Part shown: positions 10,520 through 21,000 of the stretch, piece after piece | Layout of the letters: each line of letters opens with the position of its first letter | Position numbering within the stretch: the first letter of the stretch is position 1 | DNA from: Bacteroidota bacterium | GTDB lineage: Bacteria > Bacteroidota > Ignavibacteria > UBA10030 > SZUA-254 | Assembly: GCA_030019075.1 (NCBI GenBank) | Contig: JASEHD010000018.1 | Coordinates: 1-34,750 of the forward strand | DNA length: 34,750 bases | Reading direction: 5' to 3' | Notes under the pieces: generated by a model | Seen by the model: the letters and a program-made list of their open reading frames with translations, nothing else | The model's database searches: none | What the model was told of the DNA's origin: nothing | Made by a program: the position numbers and the translations under genes

Positions 10520-10582
10520 TTTTATTGATTATTTTTACTTGATTACTTCCAGATAGATTTGTAAATTAAACGGCATAAACTG

Positions 10583-10609
10583 AGATATCAGATTTCAGAT
10601 ATCAGATTT
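10583..10609. repeat. 13-bp direct repeat, two copies
   Basis: AGATATCAGATTT occurs at 10583-10595 and again at 10597-10609, separated by one base. Nothing else is seen in this part of the intergenic region. Confidence 0.8.
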
Positions 10610-10709
10610 TTGTCTTTGACAAATTATATAATTATCTGAAGTAATACAAATACCAAAAAAAGAACTAATTCCAAGTTTGTCCAAAAAATTCTTTGTGTGT
10701 CTAAGTGCG

Positions 10710-10788
10710 CTTAGTGTCTTAGTGTCTTAGTGTTTATGTTTTTATTGTTAACTAAGAATCAAATGATATTCACCAATAAGACACTAAG
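10710..10788. repeat. CTTAGTGT tandem repeat with inverted copy
   Basis: Three perfect copies of CTTAGTGT lie head to tail at 10710-10733. The 12-mer TAAGACACTAAG at 10777-10788 is the exact reverse complement of CTTAGTGTCTTA within the tandem, so the two arms can pair across about 50 bases. The flanking sequence also matches imperfectly. It resembles short intergenic repeats I have seen in other environmental FCB genomes; function is unknown. Confidence 0.75.
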
Positions 10789-10840
10789 TTCACTCAGAAG
10801 CGCTCAGTAATAATTACTTTTTAAACAACCCCGATTAAAG

Positions 10841-11020
10841 CAAAGAGAAAACATCTGGCTTCAGCCACATGAATAATGATGCTAAAGTATTTATCTCTTT
10901 GATTCTTAGTCAGTGGACTTGGCGAAGCCATCCCTTCGGGAAAAGTCAACTGCCATAGATGAAGCAAGAGACTAAAATTATCCAATGCAAGCATCTATTG
11001 CAGTTCACTTCAGTGAACTG
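10841..11020. repeat. Cluster of REP-like palindromes upstream of the GT-C gene
   Basis: Four compact hairpins occur in 180 bp. They are TGGCT-TC-AGCCA (10856-10867, enclosed by CAAAGAGA/TCTCTTTG at 10841-10848 and 10894-10901), TGGC-GAA-GCCA (10920-10930), TCCC-TTC-GGGA (10931-10941) and CAGTTCACT-TC-AGTGAACTG (11001-11020). The middle two are enclosed by AGTGGACTT/AAGTCAACT (10912-10920 with 10943-10951, 8 of 9 pairs), giving a three-way junction. The two- or three-base loops read TC, TTC or GAA. This is the style of REP/BIME elements moved by RAYT transposases, though no RAYT gene is seen here. Confidence 0.6.
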
Positions 11021-11048
11021 ATTTAAATGAAAATAATTAAATAATCAA

Positions 11049-12413
11049 TTGAAAAATCCATTATTAATTTTTTCCTTCGTTGTTGTCGGTGTAATAGAAT
11101 CTGTGTGGATATTATCCTCACACGGGTTCTATCGTGTGGATGAGTGTGCACATTTCCTTTATAGCAGGTTTGTGCTGGAATCACTGCCGATAACAGTTCA
11201 GACCTGGCACAGACCAGGGCGACTGTGGCTTTTTGCCTTACCCGCACAATTCGGACATGTATTCACCATGTTCTTTTGTCTGGTGCTTTTCCTTTGTCTT
11301 CTTTTTGTTACTTACCGAATTGCGAAATTGAAGGGTATCAAACATGCAGAATGGGTTGTCCTTCTCGTCGGACTTCAACCGATACTTTTTGATATCTCGT
11401 ACGCATGTCTGAATGAAGCTCCAACTGCACTTGTCATCATGCTTTCATACTGGTTTCACTTAAAGAAAAAGTTTGGATGGGGGCTGGCAATTGCCTCGGT
11501 GGTATTTCTGTTCCGCTTTGAAATGTATTCGTTTGCTCTCCTGATGTTCCTCGTGTACTTGTGGAAACGCGAGTGGAAGGTTTTACCATTAGTATTGTTG
11601 GGACCGCTGCTTTGGATTGGATATTCGACTATCATCTCAGGAGATTTTTTTACGTTCTTCAGGGAATGGTCACGTTTTTCCAATTTGGAGAAGTTTAAAC
11701 CCGGCATATCAGTAACACATTATTTGGAGAACCTACAAACCATTTTCGGGTATGGACAAGTAGTACTATTTGCCACAGGTGTAATCTTTATTACCCGTGC
11801 AAAGAGGAACGCCGACTACGGAATTATTTATTGCACCATAGCGATCAATATTATCATCAATACTCTTACCGGAGCGGAAGTGTTTCATTGGACGGGCAGC
11901 ATCGGTGAGTTGCGATATGTTGCCGTAGTAGGACCTTTTTTGGGAATTGTGTCGGTATATGGTCTATCAGAAATTCTTGAAAGAATCAAAACTGCATGGG
12001 GAAAGCTTGCATTTTCTGTCCTTGTATTTAGTGCTGTTGTGTTTAATTGTACATTAGCGACTCATCCTCGACAATGGACAAATTATAATCGAGTGACGAT
12101 GAATATGACTAAAGCAGCGAGAACTCAGTATCCACATTTGACTCTGCTCAGTAACGATTGTGTTGCGGCGTATGAGATGGATGTCTCGCCAGCGGGAGGA
12201 CCGTATTTTGCACAACTGAATAAGGATATGCTGAAGAAGTATCCGGAGTGCCTTATTCTATGGGATCCATTTTTAGCAAACTCAATTTTTTCCCAAACTG
12301 AAATTACAAAGGAGAAGATGCTGCAGGATACGACTGTGAGAGTGTTGGAGGAATATAAATATTTTAATGCAGAGTATCTCTTGCTGTACAGGAATGTGCA
12401 AAGAGAAAGATAG
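11049..12413 (+). CDS. GT-C-like membrane glycosyltransferase (uncharacterised)
   Basis: A 454-residue integral membrane protein with about nine to ten hydrophobic segments through residue 345 and a soluble C-terminal tail of about 110 residues. The first extracytoplasmic loop carries RVDECAHFLYSR (D31, E32), the position where GT-C enzymes such as ArnT and protein mannosyltransferases hold the catalytic acidic residues. That suggests transfer of a sugar from a polyprenyl-phosphate donor, but donor and acceptor are unknown. The start is a TTG with no clear ribosome site; an in-frame stop lies 12 bases upstream and no ATG is close. It is the only plus-strand gene for 18 kb and is bracketed by hairpin clusters, so recent insertion is possible. 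Confidence 0.7.
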   Translation: MKNPLLIFSFVVVGVIESVWILSSHGFYRVDECAHFLYSRFVLESLPITVQTWHRPGRLWLFALPAQFGHVFTMFFCLVLFLCLLFVTYRIAKLKGIKHAEWVVLLVGLQPILFDISYACLNEAPTALVIMLSYWFHLKKKFGWGLAIASVVFLFRFEMYSFALLMFLVYLWKREWKVLPLVLLGPLLWIGYSTIISGDFFTFFREWSRFSNLEKFKPGISVTHYLENLQTIFGYGQVVLFATGVIFITRAKRNADYGIIYCTIAINIIINTLTGAEVFHWTGSIGELRYVAVVGPFLGIVSVYGLSEILERIKTAWGKLAFSVLVFSAVVFNCTLATHPRQWTNYNRVTMNMTKAARTQYPHLTLLSNDCVAAYEMDVSPAGGPYFAQLNKDMLKKYPECLILWDPFLANSIFSQTEITKEKMLQDTTVRVLEEYKYFNAEYLLLYRNVQRER

Positions 12414-12589: not shown

Positions 12590-13813
12590 TCATAGAAACA
12601 CAACATCCTCACCTTTATGATCAAGCGAGAGGAAGAGTAACATGTAATCGCGCAGATGTCTTGTAATCAGAAAATTCTTTTTAATATGCTCTCGACCACT
12701 AATACCGAGTTTTTCTCCATACGATGGATTCTGTAAAAGTTGTTTAAGTGCAAATGCAGTTCCTTCAATAGTGTGCGTAAGTAATCCCGAATATTTGTTA
12801 GCAATCTGTAAAGGAATTCCGCCAACAGCGCTTGCAATTACTGGTTTTCCTTTCCAAAGGGCTTCAGCCACAGTTAATCCGAAACCTTCACGGAGTGATT
12901 TTTGAAGAACAACTGATGATGCCCTTTGAAGCGCATTAATCTCAATGTCGCTGCTCGGTGGTAGCAATAGAAGAAAAATATCTGGATCGTTTGCTGCGAT
13001 CTCTTGAACTTCGGCAAGAACTTTTGCGCCTTCGGGATCGTCTGTTGCGCCGCCTCCGGCAAGAACGAGTTGACAATCTATATATTTTCTTACTTTTCGG
13101 AAAACCTGTACAACACCTTTCGGATCTTTTAAATAATCGAATCTTGAAATTTGTGTTACGATTGGACGATTTTTATCTATCTTCAAACGTTCTAATACAG
13201 AATCAATTGTATCTTGAGGCAAATCTTTATTCTTGTCACTCAATGGATCAATCGAAGGTGCGATGAGCACTTGTGGAATTCGTAACTCACGCGCAAATGC
13301 AGGCGCCGAAAAAATGCTGACATCGTATTGCTCTATGTATTTTTTTAGAAAATTCCATGTAAATGGGTCGGGATGTGAAAAATCTATATGACATCTCCAA
13401 ATCCACTTATGCCCGATTTCTTTCTTGCGAGAAATCAGTCCAATCGGTTGTGGGTCGTGAATGAACATAATATCTCCGCGCAAATCCATGTCTCGTGCGT
13501 TCATCTCGTTGGTTTGAATGAACAGACCCATCTCATCTTGTGAAAACAAGACTTTTTGTCCATGAAGGGCATTATGCATTTTCTTGGTTACTTCGAAAAA
13601 CTTTTCACCACCTTTTATAACATCCCAGAAAGCATTAATACCAAGGTCTTTTAAAAGTGGTACCATCCGTATCAATATTTCGGCAACACCACCTCCAACA
13701 GCAGTTGAGTTAATGTGCTGGACGCTAACGTTTTTGAGTTTGCTCGCATAAAGTTCCAATTCATTAATTACATCCTTACCAACAATCGGTTCATATTCAT
13801 AAAGATTTGCCAT
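12590..13813 (-). CDS. treT: Trehalose synthase TreT (glycosyl-transferring, GT4)
   Basis: A 407-residue retaining glycosyltransferase that joins NDP-glucose and free glucose into trehalose in one reversible step. The N-terminal half has VQHINSTAVGGGVAEIL, the glycine-rich donor loop typical of TreT, and DIMFIHDPQPIGL with the acceptor-site histidine. The C-terminal Rossmann half has SRFDYLKDPKGV and the GT4 signature REGFGLTVAEALW (E-x7-E). Length matches the archaeal TreT enzymes. It is last in the trehalose operon and begins 1 bp after the DUF5752-like stop, so it is co-translated with it. A trehalose phosphorylase of the same fold is the main alternative. Confidence 0.85.
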   Translation of the reverse strand: MANLYEYEPIVGKDVINELELYASKLKNVSVQHINSTAVGGGVAEILIRMVPLLKDLGINAFWDVIKGGEKFFEVTKKMHNALHGQKVLFSQDEMGLFIQTNEMNARDMDLRGDIMFIHDPQPIGLISRKKEIGHKWIWRCHIDFSHPDPFTWNFLKKYIEQYDVSIFSAPAFARELRIPQVLIAPSIDPLSDKNKDLPQDTIDSVLERLKIDKNRPIVTQISRFDYLKDPKGVVQVFRKVRKYIDCQLVLAGGGATDDPEGAKVLAEVQEIAANDPDIFLLLLPPSSDIEINALQRASSVVLQKSLREGFGLTVAEALWKGKPVIASAVGGIPLQIANKYSGLLTHTIEGTAFALKQLLQNPSYGEKLGISGREHIKKNFLITRHLRDYMLLFLSLDHKGEDVVFL

Positions 13814-13814
13814 T

Positions 13815-14477
13815 TTATTTTCCCTCCAATCGAACCCGGACTAATCTCACGAGGTTATGTTTTAAATTATCAAGCGTTTGTGTATAAGGATCAAGTTGCT
13901 TGAATGCTGATGCCAACTTTTCATCTTCAAGTGATTGCCCAATCCAATAACAAAATCGATCTTTCTGCTGATGCAGTGGTGCTTCAAACATGTGATAATA
14001 AATTGAATAATTTGAAACGCTTTGAAGACATTGTTTGAATTCTAATAAATCATGTGCGATGTATTGCGTTGGAAAAACGAATGTTTGCGCACCCATGAAG
14101 TGGAATTCTTCGCCTGCCGGTACGTTTCGATTAGCTGAATCTGGATCTTGTTGAATCGAATTTTCAATGATCTCAACAAGTCTAAATTGAATATCTTTTA
14201 ATGAGGAGAATTGTCGAAGATCGATGCCGGCAATCTCTTCGCCAAGAGCGTCATTCTGAAGAACATTTGTGATCCAATATGCAAAATCGTTAGGCGGCTC
14301 AGGCGAAAGATACTCATGCTGTTCAAGAAAGTGATGAGTGTGTTGGTAGATGGAAGAAACCGGTACTTCTTTAATTCCTGCGAGGAGTGCATTTAAGTTT
14401 TTTGCTTTCTTCCCTAAGAGGTACGTCAAATTCTGGCGTGTGAGAAATTGGAACGGTTCCTTTGCAATGCGATTCAT
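13815..14477 (-). CDS. DUF5752-like protein of the trehalose operon
   Basis: A 220-residue soluble, probably helical protein with no signal peptide or membrane segment. Visible features are a repeated aromatic/histidine pattern (SIYQHTHHFLEQHEY, then YSIYYHMFEAPLHQQKDRF) and twice a segment of the type F-x-Y-W-I (FAYWITNVLQ, FCYWIGQSLED), so it may consist of two related halves. I recall such proteins under the DUF5752 name next to treT genes, but I cannot confirm the family here. Its start overlaps the otsB stop (ATGA) and its stop abuts treT. A role in trehalose synthesis or its control is inferred only from position. Confidence 0.6.
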   Translation of the reverse strand: MNRIAKEPFQFLTRQNLTYLLGKKAKNLNALLAGIKEVPVSSIYQHTHHFLEQHEYLSPEPPNDFAYWITNVLQNDALGEEIAGIDLRQFSSLKDIQFRLVEIIENSIQQDPDSANRNVPAGEEFHFMGAQTFVFPTQYIAHDLLEFKQCLQSVSNYSIYYHMFEAPLHQQKDRFCYWIGQSLEDEKLASAFKQLDPYTQTLDNLKHNLVRLVRVRLEGK

Positions 14478-15286
14478 ACAAGACCTCGTTGATTGTGTTT
14501 TAATGAGATTATATTTTCTAATAATTGCCGCACTTCAGAAGAATTGCGGAGATAATACTTTGCATAAGTAGATTTATTTTTTGCAACGCGTATTGTGATT
14601 GCATGCGATGGCAACAACCTGAATGCGTCTTCATCAGTTTTATCGTCACCGATAAAAATAACAGTTGATTTGTCAGTTACCCGATACATCTTTAAGATTT
14701 TAAGAATTGCCTTGCCTTTATCCCATTGAATTTGAGGGCGAACCTCGATTACTTTTTTACCTGCGGTCAGTTTCAAGGCTTCATAAAATAATGATACGAT
14801 TATTTTCAGAATTATTTTTAATTGTTGAACGTCTTCAGGTTTCACATTTCGATAATGAACGCTCAATGTGAATCCTTTGTTCTCGATTAAAAATCCTTTT
14901 ATAGGTTTAAGTCCCTTTACAAGAGCTCCTTCGACTTTTTTAATTAGTGGTAATACTCGTTTAACATCAGGGTGTATCCATGTTCGCTTTTTATGATGAA
15001 TCTGGAACCCATGGTTAGCAGCATATAATATATTTTTGATCCCAAGAAGATTGCGAATATCATTTAGCGAGCGGCCAGTAACGATACAGACAGAGATGTT
15101 TGAGTGTCTCGCTAATTGTGCAATCAAAGTTCTCGTAATTAAAGGAAGTACAGCTAACGAAGGATGTTTTTTAATCGATACAATAGTGCCATCATAATCG
15201 AGGAATAAAAATATTTTATTACTGTTAGAAATCTTCTGTTGAAGATTTTGCCACACTTGTTTTCGGAATAAATAAGTTTGTGCCAT
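14474..15286 (-). CDS. otsB: Trehalose-6-phosphate phosphatase
   Basis: A 270-residue HAD-superfamily phosphatase that removes phosphate from trehalose-6-phosphate. HAD motif I is FLFLDYDGTIVSI with nucleophile D30 and acid/base D32, motif II is SVCIVTGRSL, the motif III lysine is in WDKGKAI, and motif IV is IGDDKTDEDAF. Length is normal for the bacterial enzyme. It directly follows otsA (14 bp gap) and overlaps the DUF5752-like gene by four bases, so the products should be made together. It is the second step of the two-step OtsA/OtsB route. Confidence 0.93.
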   Translation of the reverse strand: MAQTYLFRKQVWQNLQQKISNSNKIFLFLDYDGTIVSIKKHPSLAVLPLITRTLIAQLARHSNISVCIVTGRSLNDIRNLLGIKNILYAANHGFQIHHKKRTWIHPDVKRVLPLIKKVEGALVKGLKPIKGFLIENKGFTLSVHYRNVKPEDVQQLKIILKIIVSLFYEALKLTAGKKVIEVRPQIQWDKGKAILKILKMYRVTDKSTVIFIGDDKTDEDAFRLLPSHAITIRVAKNKSTYAKYYLRNSSEVRQLLENIISLKHNQRGLV

Positions 15287-15300
15287 TATTCTATCATCCG

Positions 15301-17550
15301 TTAAGTATTTTTCTTAAGCCGTATCCGGGAGAGCGTAGCAACCAAATTAGCAGCCCAGCGATAGACGTTATGTTCCCTCAATATTCCTTGCATTCTTTGC
15401 ATTCGTAATTTTCGTTCATCGGGTGGCATAGTTAGTGAGGAATGAATCGAATCGGCAACTTCCTCGACGTCATAAGGATTCACGATGAAAGCATCGTGCA
15501 GTTCTCTTGCTGCACCCGTAAACTGGCTAAGAATAAGCGCGCCATCTTCATCGTCTCTGGCTGCAACATACTCTTTTGCAACGAGATTCATTCCATCGTG
15601 AAGCGATGTTACCATGCAAAGATCAGCCGCTTTATAATGTCGGTTGATTGTATCATGATTATGATGTGCTTCGAGGTAAATAATCGGTTTCCATTTTTTT
15701 GTCTGGAAACGCCAGTTGATTTTATTGGCTGTTTCTTCAACTTCAGCGAGTAAATCATGATACCGCTTGATATGAGTTCTGCTTGGTGCACCCAGTTCAA
15801 TGAACGAAAATTTCTCTATAAATTCAGGATATTTCTCAAAGAAACGCTCCAGACCTCTGAACCGTTCGATAATACCTTTTGTATAATCAATCCTATCTAC
15901 ACCAACGCCGAGATATTCAACAGATATATTATGATCTTTCATTATCTTTTTCAAGAGAGTTTCTTTGTTGACCCCGGGCTGTTCGACTGTAGTAAGTACC
16001 GCCGGAAATGCAACGCTGATAGGGAAAGGTTTTATCAAGGTGATGTGTTCTTGTCGTTCGATTGAAAATTGTTCCCAATTAATTTTCGATTCAAGGAATC
16101 GGTCAATCGTATCAAGAAAATTATTACAATGATATTGAATCTGGAAACTTACGAGATCAGCAGCTAATAAACCGAGGAGTATTTCTCTTTTCCACGGACA
16201 GATACCGAATGCCTCTGGGTTTGGCCAAGGAATATGCCAGAAGATAGCAACTCTCGCATCGGGGCGCTTCGATTTGATCAGGAAAGGAAGCAGTGCAAAA
16301 TGATAATCTTGAATCAATATGAGCGGCTCTTCTTCATTTTCGATTTCATCAAGTAATGCTTCTGCAAATTTCTCATTTACTTTCTGGTAATGTATCCAGT
16401 CTTCCAAACGGAAAATAGGTCGTGTGTGTGTGTGATGGCAAAGGGGCCAGATTCCTTCATTCGAAAATCCATAATAATAACCTTCTTCTTCTTCTTTTGT
16501 CAGCCACACACGTTTGAGTGTGTAATTTGGCTCTTCCGGTGGAACCGGAATTTTTCCATTTCGATCTGACGTTTCTAAATCGGCATCGCCACTTCCGTGC
16601 GCAATCCACGTACCACCGCAAGAACGCATAATCGGGTCTATCGCTGTAACTAATCCACCGGCGGGAATGATGCATTCTATCGTTCCGCCGCGTCTTTGAT
16701 GCATGTATGGTTCACGATTTGAAATCACATATAGATTTTTGTTTCCAACTTCTTGCCTTACATGTTCTTTAAGCCGCTCCGCGGTCCACAAAGATTCTGA
16801 TTCAGCCCTCAGCCGTGCTTCAACCTCAGCCGACGCCCGTGCCAGTGCAAGATTCTTCACCAATATTGTTACTTCGTTGGCAAGTGGTCCTAAAACATCT
16901 CCTCGTGGGAGATTAAGGGGTTGTTTTATCTTACCCATCCGCAATCCTTTTAACCAATCTGCTATCTGTGCTATTGGCCCGGTCAAGCTCCACCGTACTA
17001 CAAGTATCGTTGTGAGAATGATTAAAAATGAAAGTATAAGAAGTCGAACGAAGTTGTTCCGCCAAATCTCTTTTAACCGACTCTCAATGTACGAAGCATT
17101 GTGTGTGAGGATAAGTGACCCAATAATTTGTTGATCTCTCCGGAGCGGAAAAGTATAGATGTGCGTTTTTATTCCATCGATAGTCTCAAAGTATGATATT
17201 CCTTCTTTCCTTGTTGTAGATTCCATGATATATTTTGTAAACGCTTGTTTGGAAAAATCAACATTGGGACTTTTTTCAACAAATACACATTGACTATCGA
17301 AGATAGCAATACCAACAAATGGGTCACGCTTTATAAAACGCTCGATGAATTTTTTCAACCGTTCAGGTGAATTAGAAAGCAGCGGTTCACTGATAGTGCC
17401 TTCCATGCTCTCAGCAAGTGTGGAAGCCCTAAGCGTTAGCTCGGTTGTTAATCGCTCCTCTTCATTCTGCACCTGATAATAGGAAAAAATAGTTGCCACC
17501 AGTGCAGCCACGAATATAAGCGAAACGATAAGGCGAAGTGTAATTTTCAT
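15301..17550 (-). CDS. otsA: Membrane sensor-HAMP-trehalose-6-phosphate synthase fusion
   Basis: At 749 residues this is about 270 longer than E. coli OtsA. Residues 5-24 are a membrane helix, 25-166 an extracytoplasmic domain of the sensor (Cache/CHASE-like) type, and 167-187 a second helix. About 188-240 is a HAMP-like region (GPIAQIADWLKGLRMGKI), and 226-266 is an alanine/glutamate-rich coiled coil. The GT20 synthase fills 272-745 with its key residues intact: SNR (R279), GGTW (W315), QDYH (D415), FWHIPWPNPE (H439), VDRIDYTKG (R553, K558) and HDGMNLVAKE (D652). It should make trehalose-6-phosphate from UDP- or ADP-glucose and glucose-6-phosphate at the inner membrane. It precedes otsB by 14 bp, with AAGGG before the ATG. 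Confidence 0.9.
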   Translation of the reverse strand: MKITLRLIVSLIFVAALVATIFSYYQVQNEEERLTTELTLRASTLAESMEGTISEPLLSNSPERLKKFIERFIKRDPFVGIAIFDSQCVFVEKSPNVDFSKQAFTKYIMESTTRKEGISYFETIDGIKTHIYTFPLRRDQQIIGSLILTHNASYIESRLKEIWRNNFVRLLILSFLIILTTILVVRWSLTGPIAQIADWLKGLRMGKIKQPLNLPRGDVLGPLANEVTILVKNLALARASAEVEARLRAESESLWTAERLKEHVRQEVGNKNLYVISNREPYMHQRRGGTIECIIPAGGLVTAIDPIMRSCGGTWIAHGSGDADLETSDRNGKIPVPPEEPNYTLKRVWLTKEEEEGYYYGFSNEGIWPLCHHTHTRPIFRLEDWIHYQKVNEKFAEALLDEIENEEEPLILIQDYHFALLPFLIKSKRPDARVAIFWHIPWPNPEAFGICPWKREILLGLLAADLVSFQIQYHCNNFLDTIDRFLESKINWEQFSIERQEHITLIKPFPISVAFPAVLTTVEQPGVNKETLLKKIMKDHNISVEYLGVGVDRIDYTKGIIERFRGLERFFEKYPEFIEKFSFIELGAPSRTHIKRYHDLLAEVEETANKINWRFQTKKWKPIIYLEAHHNHDTINRHYKAADLCMVTSLHDGMNLVAKEYVAARDDEDGALILSQFTGAARELHDAFIVNPYDVEEVADSIHSSLTMPPDERKLRMQRMQGILREHNVYRWAANLVATLSRIRLKKNT

Positions 17551-17601: not shown

Positions 17602-18647
17602 TCATTCCCAACGAGACGAAAGAAATTGGAGCATCCTCACATGACGTAGCAGTAATTCATCGACATGATCACCACGAAATACATAATAAGTGCAGCCTAT
17701 CTCATACCGAAGTAATTCTCTGATAAAATCTTCTGTCCCCAAAGTCGTTTCGTCATCCCCATGATCGATATAAATCTGGTCGAGTGAGCGCAGGTTCTTA
17801 TGGTATTGGGAAACAAGCGACAATGGATCATCGTCTAACCACTTCTGCCAGATTGTGTCTCGTGTTTCATTCGACGACACCTCAAATGGAAGATCTAAAA
17901 ATAACGGTGATTTCATTGGATTGGAAGAAAACGCTGATGCCTTTGCATATGCTGCGGCTAACGACCAATTCGTCTCGAACGTAATTTTGTTAACCAACTC
18001 ATCAACACTCTTTGGTTTTTCATGATTCGCCAACGCTCTCTTATAGATTGTTTTCCGATATCTTATTGAAAGCGGACTACCACTAAGACTTCCGATCTGA
18101 CCGAATAGATCGTTATATTTCATTCCTATTTTTATCGCACCATATCCACCCATAGAGAATCCGGTAATTGCACGTGAGCTAGGACTTTTTAGAGTGCGAT
18201 AAATGCTGTCGATATATTGCACAACTTCTTTGCTTACATATTGCTCAAAATTTCCGCCCGTAGGCGAATCAGTATAGTAACTCCCGCCAAACGCTGTTGT
18301 TCCATCAACTGCCACAATTATCATGTGAGGTATTTTTTTTCTTTCATAAGACTGAACACGTGTTCCAGCAACGACATATACTCACGGTGTCCATTATTCC
18401 TTTTCCCAAGTCCATGCAATAGATAAATAGAAGGATATTGCACTTTTTTCGAGGAAAAATACGAAGGTGGGAGCAATATTAACATCTCACGCACCGAAGG
18501 ATCACCGATGAGGTTACCTTTCAATGCCTTGCTTTCAATTTTTGAATTCAGAATGAATCTATTTAGGTCATTGCTTTTCTTCTGAGCACAACCCGATGCT
18601 GAAAACACTAGAATACTTACGATTATTAATGTCAATGATCTAATCAT
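17602..18647 (-). pseudogene. Esterase-like lipoprotein split by a -1 frameshift at an A8 tract
   Basis: Two frames make one alpha/beta-hydrolase of the FrmB/esterase-D type. The N-part (start ATG 18647) has a signal sequence ending ILVFSASGC, a probable lipobox, and PSIYLLHGLGKRN (oxyanion region). It stops after SLMKEKKYLT at 18321. The other frame resumes at the same place with KKIPHMIIVAVDG and carries the nucleophile elbow GFSMGGYGA, an aspartate in YIDHGDDE and the histidine in FRGDHVDE. The break is at GAA AAA AAA TAC, an A AAA AAA slippery heptamer. A one-base -1 slip restores a coherent protein of about 348 residues. It may be a sequencing error, a true pseudogene or programmed slippage. 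It lies 51 bp before otsA. Confidence 0.8.
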
Positions 18648-18665
18648 CTGAAAATATTTATATTG

Positions 18666-18825
18666 GGTAGTAGAATATTGGTACGATTCCAACGAACTTG
18701 AATATCTGATAAACTTCCACATTATAAAGATAATTGATTCCGAATAAAGACGCAACAAGCAGCATATAATATCGTTTTTTAATGAGAAATCCAGTTCCAA
18801 AGAATTACTAAAATATTCTACTACC
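18666..18825. repeat. 160-bp segment bounded by 14-bp perfect inverted repeats
   Basis: GGTAGTAGAATATT at 18666-18679 is exactly repeated in inverted orientation at 18812-18825. Similarity continues imperfectly inward for about 20 more bases. The segment lies between the divergent esterase and metallopeptidase genes and holds no convincing gene. A MITE-like non-autonomous element or a large regulatory hairpin are both possible; I see no clear target duplication. Confidence 0.6.
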
Positions 18826-18912
18826 GTAAAAAATTATTTGCAATCCTCGTTAAAATGAGTTAAATTCATGCGAATACACAACAATAGTCATAACATTTTG
18901 AAGGAAATAATC

Positions 18913-21000
18913 ATGCATCATCAATATTCACTAATGATTTTAACATTTTTTTTAATTGTAATATTTATAGGAACGAACACAATGAATGCACAGACTATAC
19001 CGCTACCATGGATTAAAACTTCGATAAAAAAGATTCAGGTTGAGCTAATAAAAAAGCACGGTGAATCCCAACGCAACCGTATTCAGCGGGGCATAAAACA
19101 GGTGGCTGATTTCTGGCGGACAGAAGATGGTGATGCATCAACATTCGAGAATTTTATCCAACAAAACTTCGCGGGTGACCAAGCAACACTCGATACAATG
19201 TTTAACCGCTTAGAAAATCTTCTTGAAAAGCTCACCGGGCATATGCAAGAGATTGGTCGCGAATTCCGCAACCAGGCTGATCTCGACTTGGGACCCGTGT
19301 TACCGATGGATGATATTTTCGCGGGTTATGACCCTTCTGCTCATATTAGCGATGATTTTTTTAAAAATAAATTGGCATTTATTGTCCTATTAAATTTTCC
19401 TTTGACTACGCTCGATCAGCGATTGAAGGAAGGGGAAAAATGGACTCGACGACAATGGGCGGAGGCACGGCTCGCACAAGGATTCTCAAAACGTGTTCCA
19501 GCTGATGTCAATCTTGCTATTGCTCAGGCAGCATCCGAAGCCGATAAGTATATTTCTGAATATAATATCTGGATGCACCATCTGTTGAATGAAAAAGGTG
19601 AACGACTGTTTCCACCGAAACTTCGGCTATTATCTCATTGGAATCTGCGTGATGAGATAAAAGCGAATTATTCCGATACAAACAACGGACTTGAGAAACA
19701 ACGTATTATACAGAAAGTTATGGAAAGAATTGTTACTCAAACTATCCCTGAAGTCGTTCTCAATAACCCAAATGTTGATTGGGATCCATATACGAATGAG
19801 GTGAAAGCTTCCGAGGTAACAGATTCAGATATTCCAAAAGCTTCCGACATGAAGATCACGAATGCACATGAACCCGATACAAGATATGCAATGTTGTTGA
19901 AAACCTTTCAGGCATCTACGAAGCTCGATCCATATTCACCAACAGCACCGACATTGATCGCACGGCGTTTCGATGAAAATCGCGAAATCTCTGAACAGCG
20001 TGTCAAAATGATGCTCGAACAGGTTGTATCATCAAAAGTAGCATTGGATGTTGCAAAATTGATAGAAAAGCGGCTGGGTCGTAAGCTTGAGCCATTTGAT
20101 ATATGGTATAATGGTTTCCGTCCGCGCGGAGCGTATACCGAAGCACAACTCGATGAGATTGTTTCTACAAAATATCCAACAGCCGATGCTTACAAAAAGG
20201 ACATCCCAAATCTTCTTATCAAGCTTGGTTTCTCAAAAGAACGTGCTGAGTATCTTGCAAATAATATCATTGTTGATCCCGCACGCGGCTCCGGACATGC
20301 GCTCGGCGCCGGAATGCGCTCCGAGAAGGCACATCTTAGGACACGGGTGGGAAAAAGTGGAATGAACTATAAAGGATTCAACATCGCTGTGCATGAAATG
20401 GGACACAATGTTGAACAAATTTTCTCGCTCAACGACATCGATCATTGGTTTCTGCAAGGTGTACCGAATACTGCATTCACGGAAGCACTTGCATTTGTTT
20501 TTCAGGGACATGATTTAGAATTATTAGGGCTTTCAGCGACCGATCCAAAGAGTGACGCTATGAATATTGTTAACGATTTCTGGGGAGTATTTGAAATCTC
20601 CGGTGTCGCACTGGTCGATATGGAAGTTTGGCACTGGATGTACGATCATCCAAACGCTACACCTTCGGAATTAAAAGAAGCGACAATCCGGATTGCCAAG
20701 AACATTTGGAATAAATTTTATGCCCCGGTTTTTGGTAAGGAAGATGTCTTACTTCTCGGAATTTATTCTCATATGATCGACGCATTTCTTTATTTACCAG
20801 ATTATCCAATAGGACACATGATCGCATTCCAGATTGAGGAACAAATGAAAAAAGCTGGGGCAATCGGTCCTGAATTTGAGCGGATAACGACAGTTGGACG
20901 AACCGCCCCAGATCTATGGATGAAGAATGCGACCGGCTCAACGGTTGGGCCTGAATCCTTGTTAAAAGCAGCGGAAAATGCAATAAAAGATTTACAATAA
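18913..21000 (+). CDS. Secreted HExxH zinc metallopeptidase (uncharacterised gluzincin-like)
   Basis: A 695-residue protein from the ATG at 18913, chosen because AAGGA lies 7 bases upstream and a signal peptide follows at once (hydrophobic MILTFFLIVIFIGTN, cut after MNAQ). An ATG 15 codons upstream has no ribosome site. The zinc motif HEMGH is at residues 494-498, and a likely third ligand E524 is in NTAFTEALAF, 25 residues after the motif. That is gluzincin spacing, as in M1, M3 and M4 clans. The large alpha-helical N-terminal part recalls M3/M32-like enzymes. I cannot place it in a named family. It should act in the periplasm or outside. A response regulator gene follows after 56 bp. Confidence 0.8.
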   Translation: MHHQYSLMILTFFLIVIFIGTNTMNAQTIPLPWIKTSIKKIQVELIKKHGESQRNRIQRGIKQVADFWRTEDGDASTFENFIQQNFAGDQATLDTMFNRLENLLEKLTGHMQEIGREFRNQADLDLGPVLPMDDIFAGYDPSAHISDDFFKNKLAFIVLLNFPLTTLDQRLKEGEKWTRRQWAEARLAQGFSKRVPADVNLAIAQAASEADKYISEYNIWMHHLLNEKGERLFPPKLRLLSHWNLRDEIKANYSDTNNGLEKQRIIQKVMERIVTQTIPEVVLNNPNVDWDPYTNEVKASEVTDSDIPKASDMKITNAHEPDTRYAMLLKTFQASTKLDPYSPTAPTLIARRFDENREISEQRVKMMLEQVVSSKVALDVAKLIEKRLGRKLEPFDIWYNGFRPRGAYTEAQLDEIVSTKYPTADAYKKDIPNLLIKLGFSKERAEYLANNIIVDPARGSGHALGAGMRSEKAHLRTRVGKSGMNYKGFNIAVHEMGHNVEQIFSLNDIDHWFLQGVPNTAFTEALAFVFQGHDLELLGLSATDPKSDAMNIVNDFWGVFEISGVALVDMEVWHWMYDHPNATPSELKEATIRIAKNIWNKFYAPVFGKEDVLLLGIYSHMIDAFLYLPDYPIGHMIAFQIEEQMKKAGAIGPEFERITTVGRTAPDLWMKNATGSTVGPESLLKAAENAIKDLQ

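Follow-up and report, generated by a model that had tools for sequence, protein, structure and literature searches.

The window, by which we mean the whole 34,750-nucleotide stretch of DNA analyzed here, carries a trehalose cassette headed by a trehalose-6-phosphate synthase (TPS) fused to a transmembrane sensor and a HAMP domain (Table 1). The position that a sequence-only reading had given for this gene, 15301-17550, is correct, and the gene lies on the minus strand. The TPS gene is followed after 14 bp by a trehalose-6-phosphate (T6P) phosphatase gene (TPP), which overlaps by 4 bp with a gene for a DUF5752 protein, and after 1 bp more comes TreT. This order is mostly the same across 80 homologous loci, many of which are cut by contig ends; TPP is present in 50, DUF5752 in 41, and TreT in 43. 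The DUF5752 protein matches OrfY of T. tenax (PDB 4cso) with a profile E-value of 3.8e-44 and a TM score of 0.76 for the predicted model; the depositors of 4cso termed OrfY a transcription factor. The protein itself is an internal duplication of a unit of about 100 residues (hhalign, 6.7e-24).

Table 1. Features of the fused TPS gene and its cassette.
Feature	Position	Strand	Evidence
Sensor-HAMP-trehalose-6-phosphate synthase, 749 aa	15301..17550	-	ORF, profile matches, homologues
TM1, residues 5-24	17479..17538	-	hydropathy in 81 members
Extracytoplasmic single-Cache (WalK-like) sensor domain, residues 25-166	17053..17478	-	AF2, structure alignment, profiles
TM2, residues 167-187	16990..17052	-	hydropathy and model
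HAMP domain (divergent), residues 188-240; AS1 to ~204, connector 206-222, AS2 from 221	16831..16989	-	profiles, model, spacing
Helix and linker, invariant W255 and T256, residues 241-270	16741..16830	-	model, conservation
GT20 catalytic domain, residues 271-741	15328..16740	-	PF00982 4e-115; catalytic residues invariant in 80-81/81 members
Trehalose-6-phosphate phosphatase, 14 bp downstream of TPS	14474..15286	-	TIGR00685 above cut-off; in 50/80 homologous loci
DUF5752 protein (family of T. tenax OrfY), 4-bp overlap with phosphatase gene	13815..14477	-	in 41/80 loci
TreT-type trehalose glycosyltransferring synthase	12590..13813	-	PF21269 plus GT4; in 43/80 loci

Three observations concern genes outside this core set. 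At one homologous locus (L111), a GH13-like gene at 10548-12350 sits after TreT and by eye resembles TreZ, malto-oligosyltrehalose trehalohydrolase; a third trehalose route may therefore join the cassette. In the window itself, a putative esterase at 17602-18800 appears to be divided between two overlapping ORFs, 17602-18324 and 18321-18800, as a frameshift or a sequencing error might produce. A 710-residue protein at 18868-21000 begins with a signal-like segment and contains an HEMGH motif like that of zinc peptidases, with no Pfam match at 0.001.

The catalytic half of the fused protein is a complete GT20 domain: PF00982 aligns to residues 272-741 over positions 2-472 of its 473, at 385.6 bits (cut-off 32.5). 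No second GT20 gene was found in the genome. We compared the domain with the UDP-glucose and glucose-6-phosphate (G6P) contacts of E. coli OtsA (PMC1769515); the equivalents of Arg9, Gly22, Tyr76, Trp85, Asp130, His154, Arg262, Lys267, Arg300, Asp361, and Glu369 are all retained and invariant in the fused family. A single position departs from the claim that every key residue is in place. Of the two Trp in the WFGW motif of OtsA, the first is kept as W315, but the second is His318 here, and across 81 members this position is His in 66, Gln in 10, Ser in 3, and Asn in 2, all of which are able to hydrogen-bond. The second Trp adjoins the 'Trp40' of PMC1769515, a number that is incompatible with the numbering that fits the other OtsA residues. 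His or Gln in place of this acceptor-side Trp (codon at about 16597) occurs throughout the branch, including an Aminobacter protein with a single membrane helix.

The protein scores 411 bits against TIGR02400, below the OtsA equivalog cut-off of 564.85, and we avoid the name OtsA for this divergent branch. The missed cut-off and the altered Trp in the acceptor region might be taken to mean that the enzyme uses another acceptor and that its product is not T6P. We consider this highly improbable: the G6P residues Arg9, Tyr76, Trp85, and Arg300 are all present, while GgpS has lost Arg300; the best-scoring models are OtsA and the TPS/TPP fusions, 120-190 bits above GgpS; and the neighboring gene encodes a T6P phosphatase. 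G6P is probably still the acceptor, given that Arg300 and the remaining phosphate contacts are present and that this phosphatase gene lies directly downstream.

The N-terminal half has exactly two strong hydrophobic segments, starting at residue 3 (mean Kyte-Doolittle value 2.49) and residue 167 (2.75), with values below 1 between them. Positive charge precedes TM1 and follows TM2, placing residues 25-166 outside the cytoplasm, and the two-helix pattern is common to 81 family members. Hydropathy and charge thus agree with the proposal of two membrane helices around some 140 extracytoplasmic residues. Neither a HAMP nor a Cache domain was matched by Pfam in the window protein alone, but its relatives are more informative: sCache_3_2 matches 21 of 61 family members (best 3.9e-7), and a profile built from the family N-terminal alignment matches the solved sensor domain of WalK, 5is1, at 3.8e-5. 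These family profiles bear out the suggestion of a Cache-type sensor.

The predicted structure agrees. In an AF2 model of the N-terminal half (mean pLDDT 84), a long N-terminal helix and a central sheet lie between the two membrane helices, the arrangement of a single Cache or PAS-like domain. Foldseek and VIA-align both rank WalK first, with CitA and other Cache sensors next; the WalK and CitA sensor domains align with the model at Z 12-15, WalK being the S. aureus protein, at Z 15-16. Against the crystal structure of WalK (4ywz_B) the sensor domain gives Z 15.0 with an rmsd of 2.1 over 130 residues, and the whole N-terminal model matches a modeled full-length WalK along 260 residues (Z 16). 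The domain is under purifying selection, with dN of about 0.1 and dS of 0.9-1.8.

The segment after TM2 had been called HAMP-like, and the family supports this even though the window protein gives no Pfam match of its own. HAMP (PF00672) matches 14 of 61 members (best 3.6e-5), and in hhalign the family HAMP region aligns with true HAMP domains of the same genome (5.6e-5, probability 66%), covering 51 of 53 columns; two control regions in the same test gave nothing. The DExG motif of the family is not canonical, and the Pfam model misses most homologues. In the model, helices at 153-204 and 221-254, both fixed across homologues, are joined by a connector of varying length, the pattern of two linked helices after a membrane segment that marks HAMP domains. 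The expected coiled coil was found in part: hydrophobic residues occupy a/d positions 220, 223, 227, 230, 234, 237, and 241 in at least 96% of members and follow a heptad, with a helix period of 3.5 that exceeds shuffled sequences (p = 0.026), but the model shows a single 34-residue helix (221-254) and then a short one (257-268).

Spacing through this region is tightly constrained. P192 and G206 lie 14 residues apart in 80 of 80 homologues, and in 79 of 80 there are 53 residues from E226, in the HAMP output helix, to R279, a catalytic residue. Where length differs between TM2 and the enzyme, it does so mainly in the connector (206-222), which varies from 15 to 19 residues. A constant distance from HAMP to enzyme with a variable connector is what would be expected if a signal passes mechanically.

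Besides the window's genome, nine of 59 near genomes encode full-length relatives (59-86% identity); in one, a contig end truncates the gene. Among 84,980 species genomes, the 80 best matches align from about residue 1 to 745, contig-cut ones aside, at 50-85% identity, and all have an N-terminus that is complete or runs to the contig end. A survey of GT20 proteins for the same N-terminus finds full-length homologues in nine named phyla: Bacteroidota, Nitrospirota, Acidobacteriota, Elusimicrobiota, Omnitrophota, Methylomirabilota, Myxococcota, Thermodesulfobacteriota, and Verrucomicrobiota. Searches of plasmid and phage collections returned GT20 matches but no full-length fused relative. Some genomes hold two fused TPS genes, perhaps with different sensors (L112 and L113 in G137; L171 in G561, possibly in tandem). 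The draft genome consists of 226 contigs, one of them being the window, and a separate membrane gene might have been joined to the synthase by an assembly or frame error; the chance of this is negligible, since scores of independent assemblies share the same reading frame, almost always free of stops, and the 80 best homologues keep the fusion.

The tree places the fused proteins in a single clade (SH-aLRT 98), next to the Aminobacter protein and to sensorless proteins that begin at about W255. Because all fused GT20 domains fall in this one clade, the sensor was probably gained once, and without loss within our sample, which was chosen by similarity to the window protein, so that losses could be missed. 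No hidden sensor was present in the Aminobacter and haloarchaeal matches, which have one membrane helix or none. The Aminobacter branch, outside the fused clade, carries the same GT20 domain (50% identity) on one membrane helix, with no sensor or HAMP. Such a protein would fit a reading of the N-terminus as a mere anchor or scaffold, placing trehalose synthesis at the inner membrane near MscS channels with no signal to the enzyme, and channel genes do often adjoin. We find this rather unlikely for the fused family: one helix would suffice as an anchor, yet a full sensor and HAMP are retained in nine phyla with no loss in the sampled clade, and neither the exact HAMP-to-enzyme spacing nor the heptad would be needed.

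The architecture itself, a Cache-type sensor, HAMP, and helix leading to a catalytic GT20 domain that serves as receptor output, has strong support from its conservation, its fold, and the constant spacing. Neither finding that was to refute the sequence-only reading came out of the analysis: HAMP and sensor profiles do match within the family, the predicted fold is that of a periplasmic sensor, and the homologues carry the fusion. We think it likely that the protein is a one-component transmembrane receptor enzyme whose sensor would switch T6P synthase directly. The extracytoplasmic Cache domain would sense a cue, TM2 would relay the conformational change into HAMP, and the second HAMP helix, continuing as the heptad helix into GT20, would alter synthase activity. 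The adjacent phosphatase would then convert T6P to trehalose, with TreT as a second route. In the sequence-only reading, too, GT20 was the output of a one-component receptor, and this part stands; that a cue drives its activity is what we infer. The cue may be osmotic or related, the active form may be a dimer, and the direction of regulation is probably activation under stress.

Channel genes near these cassettes bear on the nature of the cue. In near relatives, 36 genes with an MscS domain in about 98 Mb amount to about one per 2.7 Mb, a background taken from the window's own relatives only, so that other phyla may hold more. At the fused-TPS loci, tblastn finds an MscS-like ORF in 16 of 80, in 755 kb of flank. 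Pfam confirmed seven MscS proteins from such loci, two of them fusions with DUF5752. In these chains DUF5752 lies behind the MscS transmembrane and beta domains (L027, 3281-4657; L040, 9024-10430), as it does by similarity in L028 and L095. Within the same class, MscS lies between TPS and DUF5752 in 10 of 18 sensorless TPS loci, although these ten cases come from one genus and the MscS counts are phylogenetically non-independent; any channel-like gene occurs in 4 of 18 fused loci. In the same order, MscS is in the cassette at five of seven loci with a bifunctional TPS-TPP (TPSP), for example as MscS-DUF5752-TreT-TPSP. Bifunctional cassettes with MscS are found at L173, L174, L175, L176, and L177, most of them also with DUF5752 and TreT. 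The MscS gene of five close genomes with the fusion sits on another contig.

Channel-like genes at 16 of the 80 fused loci, and at 4 of the 18 in the class, rule out strict complementarity of sensor and MscS. Still, cassettes without a sensor often carry MscS, which is rarer beside a sensor-fused gene, and this pattern points to osmotic control. The gene context of MscS, T6P phosphatase, and TreT likewise favors an osmotic role, though context does not identify the ligand. The receptor could instead control T6P as a signal molecule or a control on carbon flux, and not trehalose as a bulk osmolyte: T6P has regulatory roles in Arthrobacter and yeast (PMC5685639, PMC1769515), and TreT offers a second trehalose route within the cassette. 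With a dedicated phosphatase 14 bp downstream, and with MscS channels and TreT indicating a bulk solute, we regard this as very unlikely. A broader form of the receptor-enzyme reading is less likely than not: the cassette would be a self-contained osmostat whose receptor-enzyme makes the solute on an outside cue, and since sister lineages have an MscS-type channel as the sensing or release part, channel and fused receptor might be interchangeable envelope couplers to trehalose synthesis.

HAMP receptors drive kinases, cyclases, phosphatases, and chemotaxis signaling. The fused family, spread over at least nine phyla of mostly uncultured soil and groundwater bacteria, instead has as its output the committed enzyme of a compatible-solute pathway. 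If our reading is right, osmolyte level would be set by receptor-enzyme allostery, without a transcription step, kinase, or messenger; HAMP signaling studies would gain an assayable enzymatic output, and sensor versus MscS would give a genetic handle on how envelope stress couples to trehalose in bacteria. We found no paper on a HAMP-fused or membrane TPS among the open-access papers searched, and a description in a subscription paper is possible; this large bacterial receptor-TPS family is apparently undescribed.

Several known systems share parts of this design. WalK/YycG-type histidine kinases likewise have a single PAS/Cache sensor between two membrane helices followed by HAMP; unlike them, the window protein has a GT20 output and no HisKA or HATPase domain, and identity is just 13-17%. 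With GT20 alone after HAMP, a sensor histidine kinase is ruled out. Soluble OtsA shares the GT20 fold and nearly all catalytic residues, but at about 32% identity the window protein differs in adding a membrane sensor and HAMP and in having His318 for one Trp. Bifunctional TPSP, used instead by other members of the same order, serves the same pathway with a fused phosphatase and no sensor, whereas the window phosphatase is a separate gene (14474-15286); TPS and TPP are not in one chain, which rules out a TPSP identity.

Two further systems tie TPS to regulation at the protein level or to osmotic sensing. Arthrobacter OtsA has been described as an osmotic stress sensor, but its sensing depends on the amount of T6P and on self-assembly, and no receptor domain is described for it (PMC5685639). 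The msc-gt-tpsp complex of T. tenax is likewise a trehalose cassette of the TPS/P route with TPS controlled at the protein level (PMC3634074); T. tenax also has the OrfY/DUF5752 family (PDB 4cso), and MscS is shared with the related bacterial cassettes. There, TPS is switched by a partner glycosyltransferase (PMC3634074), whereas the window TPS has a fused receptor. The msc-gt-tpsp arrangement was reported to be unique to Thermoproteales, in Thermoproteus and Pyrobaculum; the bacterial MscS cassettes extend it beyond these two genera.
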